Shown one piece after another: positions 1-12,931 of a stretch of 64,000 bases of DNA. The stretch comes from Halobacteriovorax sp. (GTDB lineage: Bacteria > Bdellovibrionota > Bacteriovoracia > Bacteriovoracales > Bacteriovoracaceae), in contig PBIO01000017.1 in the NCBI GenBank assembly GCA_002720865.1, forward strand, positions 1-64,000, in the 5' to 3' direction. Each line of letters begins with the position of its first letter. Position 1 is the first letter of the stretch. The notes below the pieces were generated by a model. The model worked only from the letters and a program-made list of their open reading frames with translations, ran no database searches and was not told the DNA's origin. The position numbers and the translations under genes are program-made.

Positions 1-117
1 ACTACAATCTGATTTTGGGCAGCTACGATTCACGAGGGTAAATCTAAGCAAAAGCTGTACCAGTTAAACGAGGCTAGTCTTGGGAGTGGAATTTATCACC
101 ACGGTTGTAGGTCAGTT

Positions 118-774
118 TTAATAAAATGAACTTCGACTGAAAGGACTCTTACTTTGAAGTTTTCGGGCTTCTATAGGATATGTCTTCATTTCACGAGTAA
201 AACTTAAAAATAAAACCTTATAAAGCATTTCAAGTTTTCCATTAACGTATTTAAATCCGGAAATACCAATATTCAAAGGCCCACTAAGGGGTGGCTCATG
301 CAAGTAGGTGGTTCCATTTAAGCGCAACTTAATAGTTTTAGGATAGGTAAAATTGCTAGTAAAGTAGCTGTAGTTCGCTACTTTCACCTGACTCTCCTTT
401 GAGTAACCAAAAAGAATCAGACCATTCATAATAATCATTGTTTCCATAGTTAGATGAGTATTATTAGCAAGGGGAGCGTTTAGCATCCAAGGACTTTTAA
501 AATCATAAAGAGAGTCTGCATCTAACAAAGTTTTTTTTGTTAAGTATACGGCCGTACCTGGAATAACCTGTCGTGATTTTTTTAAGATGAGGTCAAAGAA
601 ATTTTGTTTTAGTGAAATAGCTTTAGCAATATCACTATAAAGGACCTGTTTTTTATACTCCGCTATGTAGTTTAACTTTATACCTTTAAGTCTAGAGGAG
701 ACCTCACTTGGAATAACTTCAGAGTGAGCAGGAAGACAAAGAACAGTGAAAATGATAGTTGCAAATATTTTCAT
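118..774 (-). CDS. Secreted protein of unknown function, 218 aa
   Basis: The N-terminus (residues 1-19) is a typical Sec signal peptide with a Lys at position 2, a hydrophobic core and AHS as the likely cleavage motif, so the product should be periplasmic or exported. No cysteine follows it, so it is not a lipoprotein. The mature part is about 200 aa of mixed composition with many Tyr, Lys and Leu residues, and I recognise no catalytic motif. It lies 81 bp downstream of another secreted-protein gene on the same strand and may share its transcript. The ribosome site is weak (AGAAAG just before ATG). Existence as a gene is fairly safe; function is unknown. Confidence 0.75.
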   Translation of the reverse strand: MKIFATIIFTVLCLPAHSEVIPSEVSSRLKGIKLNYIAEYKKQVLYSDIAKAISLKQNFFDLILKKSRQVIPGTAVYLTKKTLLDADSLYDFKSPWMLNAPLANNTHLTMETMIIMNGLILFGYSKESQVKVANYSYFTSNFTYPKTIKLRLNGTTYLHEPPLSGPLNIGISGFKYVNGKLEMLYKVLFLSFTREMKTYPIEARKLQSKSPFSRSSFY

Positions 775-5409: not shown

Positions 5410-5537
5410 CCGAGCAATTCCCTTTTTAATTCAAACAGAATTTTTTGTCCCTAGGCTTATGCGTTACGGAATGCTACCATTTTGTCCGAGTGCAACTTTA
5501 CTCAGGTTGAGAAAATAAATTTAAGGAGCCAAACAAC

Positions 5538-7457
5538 ATGAAAAAATGGATTGCGAATGGATTCGCATTGACGGCTTTGCTAGCTATGGCGAGCTGTAGT
5601 CACGGAACATGGGGTGATCGTACTATTTCTTCTTCTAAGAAAAGAGGCGACACTTATGACTATGATCAAGGTCCAGACAAGGACTCTGATTTAACTTATC
5701 TCTTTGCTAATACTCCCAACTACCGAGCCTTTGGTAGTAAAGTAATTGGTGGTAAAGGTGAAAAATTTCGATGGAAGTTTGGGCCAATGTGGTACCGAGG
5801 AAGAACAGGTGAAAATGAGGTAAAAGTTTTCGTCATCGGTCAAGAAGGTGCACAAGACGAGAACGTTTCGAATAGATCGTTTACTGGGTCGACCGGAACA
5901 AAGATGCAAAAGTTTTTAAATCATATTGGGATCAACCAATCTTATCTTTTTATGAATACTTTTGTTTATACAATTACAGGTCAGTATTCTCTGTTCGGAG
6001 AAGATGCTAAGAACCCAACAAAAGTAAAACAAAGAGATAATTTACTTTGGCTAGCTCAAAATCCTGACTCAATTGTTGTTCAACATAGACATGAGCTCTT
6101 TGATACCGTTGTTGATCAGAACAAAGACCTTTCCCTTGTTATTGGTGTTGGTACGGCCGGTAAAGATACAGCCGCAACATACGCAAGACACTTAGGCGGT
6201 AAATGTTCATCTTCAACAGTTGGACGTGGTGGCTGTTTTGTAAAACATAATGGAAAAACGATTATGTTTGTTGGGGTGCCTCATCCAGGTGGTGCATCTC
6301 CAAGAAACGGTGGTGAAGACGCTCTTAAAAGACTCTTAGGAGCTTTTGATAAGCAAGCTAAAACAGTTCTTAAAGCTATCTCTTCTAAGAAGATAAAGCT
6401 TAGCAAAGACCCAGGAGCTAAAAGGGCAAGTACTTCTTCAAAATATAAATACGGAAATGCTTCTATCCCTCATATGGATTTTGCTTTTGGAACAAACTGG
6501 AGAATGGGGGAGTGGGGAACGACATCCAATAGAAGAGGATCTCACACTATTCAAGTCTTCTCAAAAAATGGTTGCTATAATAACGGAGCAAAAGAGCCAA
6601 ATGGTAGATGTTCTGCTACCAAAGTTGACAATATAAAGTACAAAAATCCTGTCGATAAAATGACTAAAGCTCCGAAGCAAATGGCAAAATGTGATGTACC
6701 TTACGAATCACCGAAGGCCTGTACTGATGCTTATATGCTTTATGATCACGGACCAGGATTTGATTTTTCTGAGTTAATGCTTGACTGGTTTCATGGTATT
6801 GACTGGGAAGCTATGGGCATTACTCAGCATATGTCTTTTGGACCAAATGGTTTCTACAGAGGTGGTTTGGAAGATGCTGAAATCCTAGTTATTGCAGACC
6901 AGTTTTCACATGATGACTTTTTCTCAGGCAGAGCATTTACAGGTGAAATGGGACAACGTTTTCAATCCTTTCTTGATAAGTCTGGAAAAGAATACGCCAT
7001 CATCAGAACTCTGCCAGTTGATTCTCTTGATCTAAGCACTGCCAAAAGAAAAGAAATCATTAACGACAAAAAAGTAACTGAGTATAGAGATGCTCTAATT
7101 GAAGCGGTTATCGAAGCTGGTTCAGTAAAGCAAGTCATAGGAGTTGGAGAAATTGCTCAAGATGTTGCTAAGAAAGTGGCAAAGGATTTTGGAATAAGCT
7201 ACAAAGGCTATTCATCCTCAGCCGTTAAAAAAATGTCTTTAACGATTATTCCTAGATTTGACCTTCCAGTTCATACAAGATGGTGGATGGGAACAAGTGG
7301 AGATAGAGCAGCTAGAGGCTACAGAGGTTCAAGCTCTAATCCTCAGTATTCTGGTGACTACTACAAAGTTTATGCGCCTAGATGGGCCACGAAGTGGAAG
7401 TCAGGGAGCATGAGCTCTGAAGAAGTAAAATCTTATAACGCTTTTAAAAACCAATAA
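5538..7457 (+). CDS. Exported lipoprotein with two uracil-DNA-glycosylase-like domains, 639 aa
   Basis: A lipoprotein signal ends at MASC (Cys20), with AGGAG 9 nt before the ATG. Domain 1 (about residues 95-260) follows the order of family 4/5 uracil-DNA glycosylases: VFVIGQEGAQDEN where the GExPGxxED loop belongs, then RSFTGSTGTKMQKFL matching RPFVGxAGxLLxxxL, a conserved Asn (140) in a MNTF strand, VIGVGTAG, and VPHPGGAS (His249) in place of the HPS loop. Domain 2 (about 447-590) repeats ILVIADQ, GRAFTGEMGQRFQSFL and VIGVGEIA but lacks a clear His-Pro loop. The acidic catalytic residues are not conserved, so glycosylase activity is doubtful. An exported UDG-fold protein is highly unusual. 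The domain assignment is by eye. Confidence 0.72.
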   Translation: MKKWIANGFALTALLAMASCSHGTWGDRTISSSKKRGDTYDYDQGPDKDSDLTYLFANTPNYRAFGSKVIGGKGEKFRWKFGPMWYRGRTGENEVKVFVIGQEGAQDENVSNRSFTGSTGTKMQKFLNHIGINQSYLFMNTFVYTITGQYSLFGEDAKNPTKVKQRDNLLWLAQNPDSIVVQHRHELFDTVVDQNKDLSLVIGVGTAGKDTAATYARHLGGKCSSSTVGRGGCFVKHNGKTIMFVGVPHPGGASPRNGGEDALKRLLGAFDKQAKTVLKAISSKKIKLSKDPGAKRASTSSKYKYGNASIPHMDFAFGTNWRMGEWGTTSNRRGSHTIQVFSKNGCYNNGAKEPNGRCSATKVDNIKYKNPVDKMTKAPKQMAKCDVPYESPKACTDAYMLYDHGPGFDFSELMLDWFHGIDWEAMGITQHMSFGPNGFYRGGLEDAEILVIADQFSHDDFFSGRAFTGEMGQRFQSFLDKSGKEYAIIRTLPVDSLDLSTAKRKEIINDKKVTEYRDALIEAVIEAGSVKQVIGVGEIAQDVAKKVAKDFGISYKGYSSSAVKKMSLTIIPRFDLPVHTRWWMGTSGDRAARGYRGSSSNPQYSGDYYKVYAPRWATKWKSGSMSSEEVKSYNAFKNQ

Positions 7458-7474: not shown

Positions 7475-8026
7475 ATGAAATTATTTAAAATTGGAATGCT
7501 TGCAGCTCTTCTTTCAACTTCGGCCTTTGCTGAAGTTAAGTTTACTTGCAGCTATAGCGATGTTTATAAAGTAGAGAAAAAAGGAAAGGTTAAAACTAAG
7601 TATGGAAAGCCAGTAGTAAAAGTCAGCGGTGAACTAAGTGAAACGTCCGGCGGAAAGCTTTCTGTTAAAAGTGCTTATCTCTTTGGAACAAAATCAAAAC
7701 AGAAGATTAAGTTTTATAGGCATGAAAGAGAAAACGAAGCCAATTTAAAGTTCGCAAAATTTCACAACAAAACGAGTGAAGAGCTTGCTGCCAAAACCTG
7801 GCTACCAACTTATGTACGTTTTTCTCTTCCTAAAAAATCTTTAGAGGGTAAGGAAAAGTCTTTTCCTGCATACTTCGCTTACTACGGAGCCAAAGAAAAT
7901 GTTAATACAATTGGCTCAGATGACCCTCAGATCACAGAGGTAGAAGTTACTGAAGAAGAGCTTGCAGAGTTTTCTAAAGAAAATGAGAAGAGCTTTGAAT
8001 ACAAACTTTGGTGTAAAAGAAAATAA
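7475..8026 (+). CDS. Secreted protein of unknown function, 183 aa
   Basis: A signal peptide (residues 1-19, cleavage after AFA) precedes a Lys- and Glu-rich mature protein with two cysteines (mature N-terminal FTCSY and C-terminal LWCKRK) placed to form a terminus-joining disulfide. It starts 17 bp after the UDG-like lipoprotein gene with a GGAGGA-type ribosome site and ends just before an intrinsic terminator, so the two genes form a two-gene operon. The likely location is the periplasm. A role together with the upstream lipoprotein is inference from the operon only. Confidence 0.75.
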   Translation: MKLFKIGMLAALLSTSAFAEVKFTCSYSDVYKVEKKGKVKTKYGKPVVKVSGELSETSGGKLSVKSAYLFGTKSKQKIKFYRHERENEANLKFAKFHNKTSEELAAKTWLPTYVRFSLPKKSLEGKEKSFPAYFAYYGAKENVNTIGSDDPQITEVEVTEEELAEFSKENEKSFEYKLWCKRK

Positions 8027-8040
8027 TTCTTAATTAATAC

Positions 8041-8066
8041 AAGGCGGCTTCGGCCGTCTTTTATTT
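8041..8066 (+). terminator. Intrinsic terminator with UUCG loop
   Basis: An 8-bp stem (AAGGCGGC with GCCGTCTT, one G-U pair) closed by a TTCG tetraloop is followed by TTTATTTTTT. It ends the two-gene operon 5538-8026 and separates it from the next lipoprotein gene. Confidence 0.85.
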
Positions 8067-8089: not shown

Positions 8090-8980
8090 GTGAAGCTTTT
8101 AAAACTTCCCATTTTATTAATCATGTCTTCGATCATATTTTCTGGATGCGCCAGTAAAAGTGTTGATCTCAAAGGCAGAACTGTCTCAAACTATATTGAG
8201 AACTTTAAAATAACTAATTTAAATGCTCATCAAAGACTCAATCTCTTAATCCAAAATATTGAAGATTTAAAAGTGGAGATGGATCAAACCAATCCTCGTT
8301 ACTATTTGTTTGAAAATTTCTTAGAAAGAACTGAAGAGCTTTTTAATGAGATTAGCGCTTATGACGGTGAAAGTATGACGGAGGCCGTATGGGTTCCTAA
8401 TGATATCGCCATCGCCCCTAAATTTCATAGAATAGTTGCTGCTTTTGAAGTTATGACTAAGGCTGAAGGTATTTTAGAGCTTGACCCACTAGTTGTAGGT
8501 TTTGATAAAAATGTAAATCTAAATCTAGAGTCCATGGAATACATCCTTGGAGAATATAAAAAGGCTATTGATAAGTTTCGCCAAGAAGGATTAGCCTCAG
8601 TTACAAAAGAAGCTTATTCAAAAATTAAGGCAAGAGAAACAAGAGACCTTATTCAATACTTAGCTGCTAGGATTGAAGGTCATTATGAGTCTGTTATAAC
8701 CAATAAAAGAAGCCGAAACCGTGTCAGTAAAATGGTTGGTTGGGCACTTGATACAGAAAGACTCTCCGGTAAATCTCCTGAAAGATTTTATACGACTCTT
8801 AAAAGATTAAAGTTAAGCTATACCTATAAGGTAGCTATGAAAGCACTAGAGAATGTCGACTTTCCGGATTCAGGAGATATTGAGGGATCTGATGCTTCCT
8901 TCAATCAGGTTAACTCAGTACAGATTTGTGCTGATATTTTAAACAAAATAGCTCATAGCTATTTAAAAGAAAATAGGTAA
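8090..8980 (+). CDS. Lipoprotein of unknown function, 296 aa
   Basis: The start is GTG at 8090 with AAGGAGG 6 nt upstream. A lipoprotein signal ends in FSGC (Cys20). The mature part is mainly helical, acidic to neutral, with heptad-like Leu/Ile spacing around residues 50-110 (LNLLIQNIEDLKVEMDQTNP and following) and no enzyme motif. It precedes the amidohydrolase gene by 9 bp, so the two are probably co-transcribed, downstream of the terminator at 8041. Function unknown; anchoring or partnering the amidohydrolase is a guess from context. Confidence 0.75.
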   Translation: MKLLKLPILLIMSSIIFSGCASKSVDLKGRTVSNYIENFKITNLNAHQRLNLLIQNIEDLKVEMDQTNPRYYLFENFLERTEELFNEISAYDGESMTEAVWVPNDIAIAPKFHRIVAAFEVMTKAEGILELDPLVVGFDKNVNLNLESMEYILGEYKKAIDKFRQEGLASVTKEAYSKIKARETRDLIQYLAARIEGHYESVITNKRSRNRVSKMVGWALDTERLSGKSPERFYTTLKRLKLSYTYKVAMKALENVDFPDSGDIEGSDASFNQVNSVQICADILNKIAHSYLKENR

Positions 8981-8989
8981 GAGGTAGAA

Positions 8990-11104
8990 ATGAAAATACT
9001 AATAAGCTTGTCTGCTTTACTTCTAAGTTTTTCCTTATTGGCTGAAACGACAGTGGTCTTCGGTAATATCCCTGGACGCTATCTTAAAAAAGAAGATCTC
9101 GGCGGGAAAAAATATAGACTTGGATATATAGAGATTAAAGATAGAGTTATCACGGCCGTCGAGCCTATCAAAAGTTCTGCAACTTATAAAAAAGTGAAGA
9201 AAGAATTTGAAGACGCTGGTGCAACTGTTGTTGTTGCGAAATACAAAACACCAGGTTCTTATAGTAAAACAACTTTTGATTTTCTCTATCCTGGACTAAT
9301 CGATCTTCATAATCACACTAAGCAGAATAATATTGATGTTTGGGATTTAGCCGAAGGTCAGTTTCAAAATCGCTTTGAGTGGCGAGCATGGAGTAAATAC
9401 AAGTATTCTGTTTCAGGAAATATGAATCCATGGATCGGCTTTGGTAAACCTATGAACTGTGCCGCATTTAGATGGTCAGAGCTTCAGGCCATGGTAACCG
9501 GGACAACATACTTACAAGGACCATCTGGATGTATATCTGATTTTTCAATCATGCAGGTTGAAGATAAAGATTCCTATATCTCAAGAAAAGATAAAGTTCA
9601 GGCCCCAACTGATTTAGTTCTGCCAAATGAGATGGTTTTTGTTTGGGATGAGCTTAGACCTGGAATTGAGAAGGGGAGTACCTACGAAGCTGAACTTGCT
9701 AAGTACGTCAATAAATACTGCGACATCCCTGGAGTTAGTGCATCGACAGTTAACACGACGGCCCTTAAAAAGCTGTCAGATAAAAAAATCCTGACCTCAA
9801 AATGTGATCTTAAAAAAGTTCACCCCAAATTTCTTCGCTATACTTACTGGATTCATAAAACAATTGCAGGAAGAAAAAAGTATTTAGCGAAATCCAACCG
9901 TGCGGCCGTTATCGCCCATCTCGCTGAAGGACGAAGAGAAGATCCATACAATATGGTTGAGTTTGAACTCGTTAAGCTTATGGGTCTTGACCAAAAGTAT
10001 GTTAACTTTGTTCACGGTGTTGGAATTGATAAAAAACACTATAAGCATATGGCCAAGAAAGGCATGGGACTAATCTGGTCACTTTATTCAAATCTCCTTT
10101 TATATGGAGAAACCCTAGATATTGCTGAAGCTAAAAAAGCAGGAATCACATTATCACTTGGATCTGATTGGCTTCCTACTGGAACAAGAGGAATCTTAGA
10201 AGAGATTAAATTAGCGGCAGCCTACGTAGACAAAGACCCATATGATCAAGGACTAAAAAAGGTGTTTAGTGATGAGGAGCTTTATCTTATGCTAACTGAA
10301 AATCCAGCTAAGATGATCAATCATTACGATATAAATATCACCAAAAAAGAACATGGAATTGGTCAGCTTAAAGTAGGCGCAATGGGTACAGTTATCGCTC
10401 TTAGAAAGTACAGCGAGAATCCATATACTAATATTGTCCGAAAGGCCTATGCTAAAGATTTAAACGCAGTCATCGTAGATGGAAAGTTTATCTATGGCTC
10501 AGAAACTTACGCCAAAAGACTTGGCTACAAATCATCGGACTATGAAAGGTTTCCTGCTTACTATGATTCTTTAAATGAGCTGGCCGGAGCAGATAAGTTG
10601 CCAACCTTAGCTGAAAAAGGAGCCACTAAGACCTCTAAGTACAAACACCTTGTAAATTTAGGAAAGGCATTAGCTGAGATGAATCCTGCTGCTACTGATA
10701 ATTGCAACTTCCGAAGTAAGAAGGCTTTTATTCATCAAAACTCTTTAGATAATAAAAAGAATAGTGGCTTGTCCAAGTTTTACGAAGAAACCGGGTTAAA
10801 CCTTGATAGATTCTCTGATATTCAAAAAGTATTAGCGGCAGGTCTTTTAACTCAGTCGAGAAATTGGAATGAGCCATCAAAAGGAAAAAAAGACTTTGCC
10901 ATGGAAAAGTTTCCTCCATTGTTTAGCTGTCATACTGAAAGGTATACAAACAGATTGGCCAACTTCGTTATAGCCAAAGAACCTGATGATGAATACTCCA
11001 TCAACAGAGAAAAGACAAAGCGAGCAAAGATTAGGAAAGAGCAAAGGTTAGGAGCCGTTCCCAAAGGCCTTGCTAAGAAATACGGATTTGATTACGAAGA
11101 ATAG
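8990..11104 (+). CDS. Exported amidohydrolase-superfamily metal-dependent hydrolase, 704 aa
   Basis: A signal peptide (residues 1-18) leads into an amidohydrolase-type barrel. YPGLIDLHNHT gives the HxH pair (His107, His109), IAHLAEG supplies His310, FVHGVGID His342, and SLGSDWLPTG Asp393, the usual order of metal ligands in imidazolonepropionase/cytosine-deaminase-like enzymes. The terminal strand VGAMGTVIAL and DGKFIYG is the small beta domain typical of the superfamily. About 170 extra C-terminal residues (from about 535) match nothing I know. The substrate cannot be told; cyclic amides, guanidines or peptides are possible. Export makes a nutrient-scavenging or envelope role more likely than core metabolism. 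Confidence 0.85.
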   Translation: MKILISLSALLLSFSLLAETTVVFGNIPGRYLKKEDLGGKKYRLGYIEIKDRVITAVEPIKSSATYKKVKKEFEDAGATVVVAKYKTPGSYSKTTFDFLYPGLIDLHNHTKQNNIDVWDLAEGQFQNRFEWRAWSKYKYSVSGNMNPWIGFGKPMNCAAFRWSELQAMVTGTTYLQGPSGCISDFSIMQVEDKDSYISRKDKVQAPTDLVLPNEMVFVWDELRPGIEKGSTYEAELAKYVNKYCDIPGVSASTVNTTALKKLSDKKILTSKCDLKKVHPKFLRYTYWIHKTIAGRKKYLAKSNRAAVIAHLAEGRREDPYNMVEFELVKLMGLDQKYVNFVHGVGIDKKHYKHMAKKGMGLIWSLYSNLLLYGETLDIAEAKKAGITLSLGSDWLPTGTRGILEEIKLAAAYVDKDPYDQGLKKVFSDEELYLMLTENPAKMINHYDINITKKEHGIGQLKVGAMGTVIALRKYSENPYTNIVRKAYAKDLNAVIVDGKFIYGSETYAKRLGYKSSDYERFPAYYDSLNELAGADKLPTLAEKGATKTSKYKHLVNLGKALAEMNPAATDNCNFRSKKAFIHQNSLDNKKNSGLSKFYEETGLNLDRFSDIQKVLAAGLLTQSRNWNEPSKGKKDFAMEKFPPLFSCHTERYTNRLANFVIAKEPDDEYSINREKTKRAKIRKEQRLGAVPKGLAKKYGFDYEE

Positions 11105-11125: not shown

Positions 11126-11153
11126 AAAAGGGGAGCGATAGCTCCCTTTTTTT
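11126..11153. terminator. Bidirectional intrinsic terminator
   Basis: A GGGAGC/GCTCCC stem with a GATA loop is flanked by AAAA on the left and TTTTTTT on the right, so it can work in both directions between the convergent amidohydrolase and START-domain genes. The stop codon of the minus-strand gene lies at the edge of the T tract. Confidence 0.85.
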
Positions 11154-11874
11154 ATTTACTGGCGGTTGCCCTTTTTTTGTCTTTTTTTAAAACATTATTA
11201 AGCTCAGTAAGCTTTTTCTTAAGACCAGGCAGTACGGGAATCTTTTTACTATTGGCCCTATTAGACACGGCCTTAAAGAAGCCGATGGGAAATGATTGCT
11301 GATAAAAGTTCACAACCCAATTAGGGATATTGCCATTGGGCTCACCAAATAGGGTCCACTCAACATAAGTTTTATTTTTTGACACGGGTCTTAGACCAAT
11401 ATTGGAGTAACCAATATTCGCCCTAACGGCCCTTCTTCCTTTTTCCCAACCTTTAACATCTGTCGACTTTGAGATTACATAAAGAAGCTTTTTTTCCTTA
11501 TGAACTAGAAGTTTATTATGGATAACATAATCTCTATCATCTAGTGGCCATGGCATATCAACTCTTGAATAAGTTATCGCCTCGTCATCTCCAATTTCCT
11601 TTATCGTAACTTTTTCTTTTAAATCCGGCTGCCATTCGGTAGCGAGCTGAACATCTCTAAGCGTTGCCATGACATCCAAAATGGGGGCGTCAATATTTCC
11701 TTCCACTTTAAAACCTAGGATATCTGAGCCTGGCATTTCTCTTGAGTAAATCTTGAATCCTTTTCTTTCTTTGATGAAGTTCCACTTGCCATCATCGTAT
11801 AGGCCTTCAAAACCACCTGCGAATGAGCTAGAAATGGAAACAAAATAAAGGAGTGCGATAAGTCTCTTTGACAT
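11152..11874 (-). CDS. Secreted START-domain (lipid-binding) protein, 240 aa
   Basis: A signal peptide (residues 1-19) is followed by a START/polyketide-cyclase-like fold. The pattern KGFKIYSREMPGS, DILGFKVEGNIDAP, LRDVQLATEWQPDL, TYSRVDMPWPLDDRDYV and TYVEWTLFGEPNG matches bacterial START proteins, whose helix-grip cavity binds lipids or other hydrophobic ligands. The family is often about 200-240 aa, so it is complete. It is likely periplasmic, perhaps handling phospholipids between membranes; the ligand is unknown. It is convergent with the amidohydrolase and shares the bidirectional terminator. Confidence 0.85.
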   Translation of the reverse strand: MSKRLIALLYFVSISSSFAGGFEGLYDDGKWNFIKERKGFKIYSREMPGSDILGFKVEGNIDAPILDVMATLRDVQLATEWQPDLKEKVTIKEIGDDEAITYSRVDMPWPLDDRDYVIHNKLLVHKEKKLLYVISKSTDVKGWEKGRRAVRANIGYSNIGLRPVSKNKTYVEWTLFGEPNGNIPNWVVNFYQQSFPIGFFKAVSNRANSKKIPVLPGLKKKLTELNNVLKKDKKRATASK

Positions 11875-11931
11875 TGAAGAATTATCGTCAAAATAGCTCT
11901 AAAACTACAGTAATTATTTAAAGAAAATGGT

Positions 11932-11937
11932 TATAAT
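11932..11937 (+). promoter_or_regulatory. -10 element of a probable leaderless transcript
   Basis: TATAAT ends 7 nt before the ATG at 11945, which puts the expected start of transcription at or next to the start codon. No Shine-Dalgarno sequence is present. No clear -35 hexamer is seen. Confidence 0.5.
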
Positions 11938-11944
11938 CTAAGCT

Positions 11945-12931
11945 ATGAAAATCATTATGCCTCTTCTTTCAATTTTGCTCTGTTTTGCACTGCTCGAATT
12001 AGGTCTACGTGGTCATGGATGGTTTTTAGGCAATGATAGGGGAGTTTACCCTCTAGCCGAAGATAAGAGACTAGATTGGAGGCCCTCAGAGGTCCCCATG
12101 ACGAATAAAAGGCAAAACTTTGTTGGTCATGACCCCATTATTTACTTTACTGACCACAGAGGCTTTAGAGGCTTTCCAAAAGAACATAAACCCGACAAAC
12201 AAACTTTGTTGGTTATTGGGGATTCATATACGCAAGGCTTAGATGTGAACCAAGAAGAAGTTTATTATGAATCCTTCACTCATCAATATAACGTCTATGC
12301 TTTTGGTGCAGCTGGATATGGAACTTACCAGCAGTACTTGAGTCTTAAACTTTTTTTGAATGAGATAAAACCAGACCTAGTTATTCTTCAATTTTGTTCA
12401 AATGACATTATTAATAACTCTTTTGAGCTAACAAAATTAGACTCTCAAAACGCCGTAAATTTTGACCGTAGATTTCTTCTTAATGGACAGGAATACAAGC
12501 ATAGCGATTTATCATTTAAGTTTAAGCTATACCAAGGCCTTAAGTTTTTAAGGATGGCCGATTTTTTTGTGTCGAATTTTTATAAAATTAAAGCCAGGCT
12601 TCAGCCTAAAACTTTGGAAGTTAAGATAACTGAAGGATCTATTGACCTTCAATATGTTAAAAAAGAAGCCGTCCATACCACGGAAATTTTAAGGAAAATA
12701 ATAGGGCTAGTGGGCCTAGAGAAAATTAGAATTTTTAACGTGTCAGGGGCAAGTCCGCTGCGCGATATTTATGATGAAATCACAGCAGACCTAGGTCTTA
12801 AAAAATTAGATGAGCCCATTATCGAAGAGCTTTATAAAACCCCAGATATCTTTGCAAAAGACGGCAGTCATTTTAATAAAAAAGGACATAAGATGCTGGG
12901 AAGTGGACTTATATCAAAATTGCTTGAATAA
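11945..12931 (+). CDS. SGNH/GDSL-family hydrolase, 328 aa
   Basis: A signal peptide or N-terminal anchor (residues 1-20) precedes an SGNH hydrolase: block I GDSYTQG with nucleophile Ser94, block II Gly in GAAGYGTYQQ, block III Asn153 in FCSNDI, and block V KDGSHFN with Asp306 and His309. These are all four signature residues, so an esterase, deacetylase or lipase activity is likely, acting in the periplasm. Family members deacetylate sugars or peptidoglycan or cleave esters; the substrate cannot be read here. The start lies 7 nt behind a TATAAT and lacks a ribosome site, so it is probably translated from a leaderless mRNA. Confidence 0.88.
   Translation: MKIIMPLLSILLCFALLELGLRGHGWFLGNDRGVYPLAEDKRLDWRPSEVPMTNKRQNFVGHDPIIYFTDHRGFRGFPKEHKPDKQTLLVIGDSYTQGLDVNQEEVYYESFTHQYNVYAFGAAGYGTYQQYLSLKLFLNEIKPDLVILQFCSNDIINNSFELTKLDSQNAVNFDRRFLLNGQEYKHSDLSFKFKLYQGLKFLRMADFFVSNFYKIKARLQPKTLEVKITEGSIDLQYVKKEAVHTTEILRKIIGLVGLEKIRIFNVSGASPLRDIYDEITADLGLKKLDEPIIEELYKTPDIFAKDGSHFNKKGHKMLGSGLISKLLE

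Follow-up and report, generated by a model that had tools for sequence, protein, structure and literature searches.

Enzymes with the uracil-DNA glycosylase (UDG) fold are regarded as guardians of the genome that work inside the cell. BdiUNG of Bradyrhizobium diazoefficiens (Blr0248, PDB 5gn2), the described member closest to the protein reported here, is a single-domain chain of 272 aa that is said to act as a dimer on single-stranded DNA and to accept a broad range of bases. Motif 1 of UDGs is a Gln-Asp doublet in family 1 or a Glu-Gly doublet in family 4, motif 3 carries an Asn, and the His of motif 2 stabilises the leaving uracil anion (PMC5387724). A phrase search of an open-access library returned no secreted, periplasmic, extracellular or exported uracil-DNA glycosylase, and no paper in that library combined UDG, amidohydrolase, signal peptide and tandem.

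We analysed a 64,000-nucleotide stretch of DNA from Halobacteriovorax sp., a marine relative of predatory bacteria (contig PBIO01000017.1, positions 1 to 64,000; hereafter the window), in which an ORF at 5538-7457 on the + strand, with exact boundaries, encodes a 639-aa lipoprotein with two UDG-fold domains (the tandem UDG). Like BdiUNG, this protein has a GQ-acid motif 1, an NTF motif 3 and an N-terminal [FY]DxG; unlike BdiUNG, it consists of two fused domains, one of them degenerate, it is exported, and its motif 1 reads GQEG(A) rather than GQDP(A). It resembles family 4 UDGs and UdgX in overall fold, in the RxF loop after motif 1 and in the His-Pro of motif 2, and departs from them in motif 1 (GQE or GQD vs GE(A/G)PG or GEQPG) and in being both tandem and exported. 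With family 1 UNG, domain 1 shares the Gln-acid doublet of motif 1, the Asn of motif 3 and the His-Pro of motif 2. The protein is thus a member of the UDG superfamily, with BdiUNG as nearest relative, set apart by its tandem arrangement, its export and its GQEG motif.

A genome search for homologues of the tandem UDG gave 77 loci, and, of 291 genomes sampled from all over the phylum Bdellovibrionota, 61 had a match to the domain 1 profile. The nearest named relatives come from Halobacteriovorax sp. bins (95% and 84% protein identity for L046 and L049, respectively). The family also has a long form of about 780-940 aa (L093-L122) with an insert in domain 1; motif 1 reads GQDGTH or GQDATH in many of these proteins, and the amidohydrolase neighbour described below is mostly absent (L098 and G041 have it). 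The window's genome encodes a separate signal-less family-1 UNG with GQDPYH and HPSPL, and the tandem UDG is therefore not the housekeeping enzyme. A further UDG-superfamily match, with a GQGPG motif, was observed in the same genome among phage- or mobile-element-like ORFs (G000:C23:27109-27495; L044).

Fold and nearest relative of the two domains

The Pfam UDG model (PF03167) scored the tandem UDG at 35 bits (E 1.8e-8), above its cut-off of 24.3. In a phmmer comparison with solved structures, BdiUNG (5gn2) was returned at E 1e-14 and the next UDG, 1ui0, at E 1.7, while family 1 structures gave no significant sequence match. An AlphaFold2 model of the whole protein, built from an alignment of 49 homologues, had a mean pLDDT of 91.6 and a pTM of 0.90, and its best match in the PDB was 5gn2 both by Foldseek (E 3.6e-13) and by VIA-align (Z 22.3 over 254 residues, 2.5 Å), with family 4 UDGs and UdgX behind it in VIA-align (Z 12-15 together, 13-15 for family 4 UDGs). 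Because the matches of the whole model mainly reflected half 1, a separate model was made of half 2 (pLDDT 91.4); 5gn2 again came first (VIA-align Z 19.9, 213 residues, 2.8 Å; Foldseek E 2.8e-12), and family 4 UDGs scored Z of about 10-11. The profiles of the two halves matched one another (hhalign 99.4%, E 4.6e-21), and each matched that of 5gn2 (domain 1, E 2e-28; domain 2, E 1.3e-11). Since 5gn2 was the best match of both halves by structure as well as by profile, both are BdiUNG-type UDG folds, and the nearest relative is BdiUNG rather than family 4/5. An earlier, sequence-only reading of this DNA had predicted two UDG domains within one lipoprotein, which the structure comparisons bear out, Foldseek included; its assignment of both to family 4/5 had to be abandoned, as motif 1 is of family-1 type and BdiUNG is the nearest structure.

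Domain 1 (residues 36-305; 5643..6452, +) is supported by Pfam, profile and structure, and domain 2 (residues 395-638; 6720..7451, +) by structure, profile and a motif table. Between them lies an extension (IPHxDFAFGTNWRMG..; 6453..6719, +) that holds Cys346 and Cys358; the cysteines of the whole protein are residues 20, 223, 233, 346, 358, 385 and 395. In the model this extension is apparently matched by the C-terminal part of BdiUNG, the VIA-align range being 38..432 of the model on 1..271 of 5gn2. We infer that the tandem protein resembles a fused dimer of the BdiUNG type.

Conservation of the active site

Motif 1 of domain 1 is Gly101-Gln102-Glu103 (5838..5846, +), its motif 3 carries Asn140 (5955..5957, +) and its motif 2 is His249-Pro250 (6282..6287, +), the roles of the motifs being those given in PMC5387724. 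Gln102, Asn140, His249 and Pro250 were invariant in 49/49 homologues, drawn from several phyla and from both long and short forms, so that the His-Pro loop proposed for domain 1 from its sequence is confirmed as a fixed feature of the family. The acid of motif 1 was Glu (GQE) in 42 of the 49 homologues and Asp (GQD, as GQDG or GQDA) in 7. The motif here reads GQEGA, with Glu for Asp and Gly for Pro relative to GQDPA. In domain 2, motif 1 is Ala453-Asp454-Gln455 (ADQ), of which Asp454 is invariant; Arg490 stands at the position of the motif 3 Asn (Arg or Lys in homologues), and no member has a His-Pro. The alignment and motif table show a conserved I-P-R-x-D-L-P..W-M-G-T-S-G signature in this domain (7248..7301, +). 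Relative to L049, domain 1 had a dN/dS of 0.024 and domain 2 one of 0.169, with dS near saturation. By residue conservation and dN/dS, domain 1 has the appearance of a functional site whose loop is altered and domain 2 that of a degenerate one, and by the dN/dS comparison domain 1 is the part of the protein under the strongest constraint. The suggestion that the catalytic acid loop is altered was only partly correct: it applies to the Glu and Gly of domain 1, where the change is mild and the Gln-acid doublet is kept; the degenerate half is half 2.

The GQEG form that motif 1 takes in this clade, with Glu for the water-activating Asp and Gly for Pro, may nevertheless count against an active N-glycosidase. 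A family 4 E41G-G42E double mutant is inactive (PMC5387724), and by analogy this would also speak against activity, though that mutant lacks the Gln as well. These substitutions would suit a protein that has lost hydrolysis and uses its two UDG folds at the envelope to bind nucleobases, nucleotides or DNA, for capture or sensing, as would the disappearance of Asn and His from domain 2 in all members, the basic character of the protein (pI 9.4 for the mature form and 9.7 for domain 1) and its lipoprotein anchor. A mere binder would hardly be expected to keep His249, Asn140 and the Gln-acid doublet in every one of the 49 homologues, across phyla and in long and short forms alike, or to be accompanied by an amidohydrolase that retains its full active site (see below), and we consider this explanation rather unlikely. 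Because the catalytic residues are kept and a deaminase-like enzyme is linked to the gene, we favour an enzyme over a mere binder of DNA or nucleotides outside the cell, which the sequence-only reading had suggested alongside a recruited fold.

Export signals and their history

The gene is preceded by the sequence tttAAGGAGccaaacaacATG (5522..5537, +), read directly from the window, in which a Shine-Dalgarno AAGGAG lies 9 nt before the ATG. Residues 1-19 (MKKWIANGFALTALLAMAS) form a signal peptide that ends in LLAMAS and is followed by the lipobox Cys20 (5538..5597, +), as the sequence-only reading had it. Signal peptides in homologues were called by a rule that demanded a hydrophobic 11-mer, a positive N-region and no charge in the core, with all possible starts tried; the frameshifted L090 was excluded. 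By this rule a signal was found in 50 of 58 Bdellovibrionota homologues (25/27 shorter and 25/31 longer proteins), part of the signal-bearing loci having been assigned to the phylum by tree position. Of the eight without one, L063 ends at a contig edge, and L057, L095, L103, L107 and L115-L117 are near misses by eye. The same rule found a signal in 0 of 18 homologues from Actinomycetota, Chloroflexota, Planctomycetota, Bacteroidota, Campylobacterota, Pseudomonadota and Thermodesulfobacteriota. Near relatives of the tandem UDG have a lipobox and many other homologues a plain Sec signal, and lipidation is thus not conserved. Of the 49 aligned homologues, 14 have Cys346 and 14 have Cys358, and none of these is signal-less.

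The existence of signal-less homologues in other phyla would fit an ordinary cytoplasmic DNA repair enzyme whose start had been mis-called. Against this stand the strong ribosome site at the called start, the signal peptides found throughout the phylum, the restriction of Cys346 and Cys358 to exported members and the separate signal-less UNG of the same genome, which together leave a repair enzyme of this kind a scarcely credible explanation; the first three rule out a start-codon artefact. No second start removes the signal, and with export conserved through the phylum and the UDG fold present in both halves, the two features that the sequence-only reading depended on both stand.

The signal-less sequences fall on one side of a single branch (99% SH-aLRT). 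In a tree of both domains, with domain 2 serving as the paralogous outgroup of domain 1, the earliest divergence within domain 2 set the long exported forms apart from all others (support 84-93). The signal-less clade therefore seems to be nested, and the simpler reading of these trees, in which branch support is modest, would be that the signal was lost after a transfer.

The linked amidohydrolase and a proposed function

The next gene, 17 bp downstream of the tandem UDG, encodes a 183-aa exported protein (7475..8026, +) and is followed by a terminator-like hairpin (8041..8060, +; a consensus match only), a gene for a 296-aa lipoprotein (8090..8980, +) and a gene for an exported amidohydrolase of 704 aa (8990..11104, +). 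Homologues of the 183-aa protein and of the 296-aa lipoprotein were each present in 6 loci. An exported START-domain protein (-) and a GDSL-type esterase (+) come after the cluster (11152-12931). The amidohydrolase has an ATZ/TRZ-deaminase-type site (H107xH109, H310xxE313, H342, D393), and its HxH, HxxE(G), H and D residues were invariant in 33/33 homologues. Among named families it comes closest to nucleobase and nucleoside deaminases (guanine deaminase, TRZ/ATZ hydrolase, 8-oxoguanine deaminase and 5'-deoxyadenosine deaminase); it falls far below every curated equivalog cut-off (at best 35.9 bits vs 617), and its sequence had no match in the PDB at E 0.01. It is like the ATZ/TRZ deaminases (guanine deaminase TIGR02967 and kin) in its metal ligands HxH, H, H and D and in its HxxE, and unlike them it is, in the window's clade, exported and extended at the C-terminus by about 200 aa; elsewhere, an S41 peptidase is fused to it or comes next. 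When the first 440 aa of the L059 amidohydrolase were considered as a fused counterpart of the 296-aa lipoprotein of the window, no convincing match was obtained.

Clustering of all ORFs around the loci identified this amidohydrolase family as by far the commonest companion of the tandem UDG (34 loci, including the window), and in other phyla, where the two genes are mostly neighbours, the distance from the tandem UDG to the start of the amidohydrolase gene behind it is -1 to 49 bp in 12 loci. It was present in 10 of 59 genomes, all 10 among the 15 with a tandem UDG and some with the two genes on different contigs, and the association was significant overall (Fisher p 5e-8) and within the family (p 3e-5), with p-values that are inflated by shared ancestry, as for the NADAR-like protein below. 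The amidohydrolase link is the most surprising part of the finding.

An exported NADAR/YbiA-like protein was found in 14/15 genomes with the tandem UDG vs 6/44 without, and lay near the gene in 9 Bdellovibrionota loci; its similarity to the family is weak, with E 9e-4 in Pfam and E 4e-5 in NCBIfam. NADAR is a fold with N-glycosidase members, and NADARs reverse guanine ADP-ribosylation (PMC11125620). An EEP nuclease-like gene was not counted as a specific partner because genomes of the family that lack the tandem UDG commonly carry it too (within-family p 0.38). The 64-kb window contains no NADAR-like, EEP-like or S41 peptidase gene, and the first two occur elsewhere in the genome: adjacent NADAR/YbiA-like and endonuclease/exonuclease/phosphatase-family proteins were observed at G000:C11:26465-28189 (L123, L125), a pair related to the one that flanks the tandem UDG in L051, L052 and L055, and a second NADAR-like copy at C31:140-757.

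Outside Bdellovibrionota, an S41 peptidase (CPAF/C-terminal-processing type) is fused to or follows the amidohydrolase in 13 loci. Modules of a signal-less tandem UDG, an amidohydrolase and a CPAF-like S41 peptidase were seen at L069:4453-8052, L072:4472-8086, L071:7801-11303 and L079:7809-11464, most loci having amidohydrolase and peptidase in one fused protein and the others having them as separate genes. At L070:7884-9920 a reprolysin-like metallopeptidase gene separates the tandem UDG from the amidohydrolase and may take the place of the S41 peptidase, and at L074:1697-2512, in a Campylobacterales bin, a caspase-like (Peptidase_C14) gene stands two genes before the tandem UDG.

The peptidase association raises the possibility that the UDG fold was recruited for a substrate other than nucleic acid, and that UDG fold, amidohydrolase and S41 peptidase make or degrade a heterocycle-bearing small molecule or peptide conjugate; amidohydrolases of this ATZ/TRZ group act on many free heterocycles. 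However, the S41 partner is absent from the window and from the Bdellovibrionota loci fetched, the UDG catalytic residues are kept, and the co-occurring exported NADAR-like protein has a nucleotide-acting fold, so that a recruited fold is conceivable and, in our judgement, doubtful. Export of a tandem UDG in a phylum that includes predators might also point to a tool of envelope defence or predation that excises bases from foreign DNA, of phage or prey, outside the cytoplasm and so damages it, and DNA glycosylases can act in anti-phage defence (PMC11078745). We hold this to be very unlikely: no PADLOC model was matched by the UDG, amidohydrolase or S41 proteins, which argues against a known anti-phage system; no relatives were found in the viral contigs, phages and plasmids searched, which argues against an origin from any of these; the gene is present in just 61 of the 291 genomes of the phylum; and homologues without a signal are present in phyla from which predators are not known.

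We prefer, tentatively and with less than even confidence, an extracytoplasmic N-glycosidase and deaminase acting on nucleobase-containing substrates. The tandem UDG would be a fused pair of BdiUNG-type domains working outside the cytoplasm, anchored here as a lipoprotein. Domain 1 would be the N-glycosidase and take a base into the UDG pocket, where the Gln-acid doublet would place the water and the base, Asn140 would read the base and His249 would stabilise the leaving base anion. Domain 2 may be a degenerate partner that fills the role which the other subunit has in the BdiUNG dimer and that shapes the substrate site. The exported amidohydrolase would belong to the same pathway, acting on the released base or readying a base for release, and deaminated bases in extracytoplasmic DNA, oligonucleotides or nucleosides would be split from their sugar. 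In favour of this reading we count the match of both halves to BdiUNG well above other UDGs, the kept residues and low dN/dS of domain 1, the phylum-wide signals with cysteines restricted to exported members, the linked amidohydrolase, the co-occurring NADAR-like protein, the separate UNG for housekeeping repair and the basic pI. Computation shows both folds, the conservation of residues, the export signal and the gene linkage; catalysis, the pseudo-dimer, the order of steps and the substrate are proposals built on these.

Further considerations weigh against an N-glycosidase of this kind. The hairpin at 8041-8060 could put the UDG and amidohydrolase genes on two transcripts; the signal-less clade with an S41 peptidase in its module is not explained by a purely nucleolytic role; and an extracellular uracil-type glycosylase would be of little obvious use unless bases were first deaminated. 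BdiUNG reportedly takes uracil and xanthine, which arise from cytosine and guanine by deamination, and an order of deamination followed by excision is therefore attractive, if unproven. In its fullest and more speculative form, which we regard as improbable, an exported deaminase would convert bases in nucleic acid or nucleosides and the exported tandem UDG would release them, base excision would have moved from genome repair to nutrition or attack, and a cytoplasmic offshoot would have joined an S41 peptidase in other phyla.

The linkage of UDG and amidohydrolase genes across several phyla suggests an undescribed pathway for nucleobases outside the cell interior, and the idea can be tested with two purified proteins. 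If true, a phylum-wide exported tandem UDG with one conserved active site and a deaminase-like partner would give UDG chemistry a new place and a new purpose.
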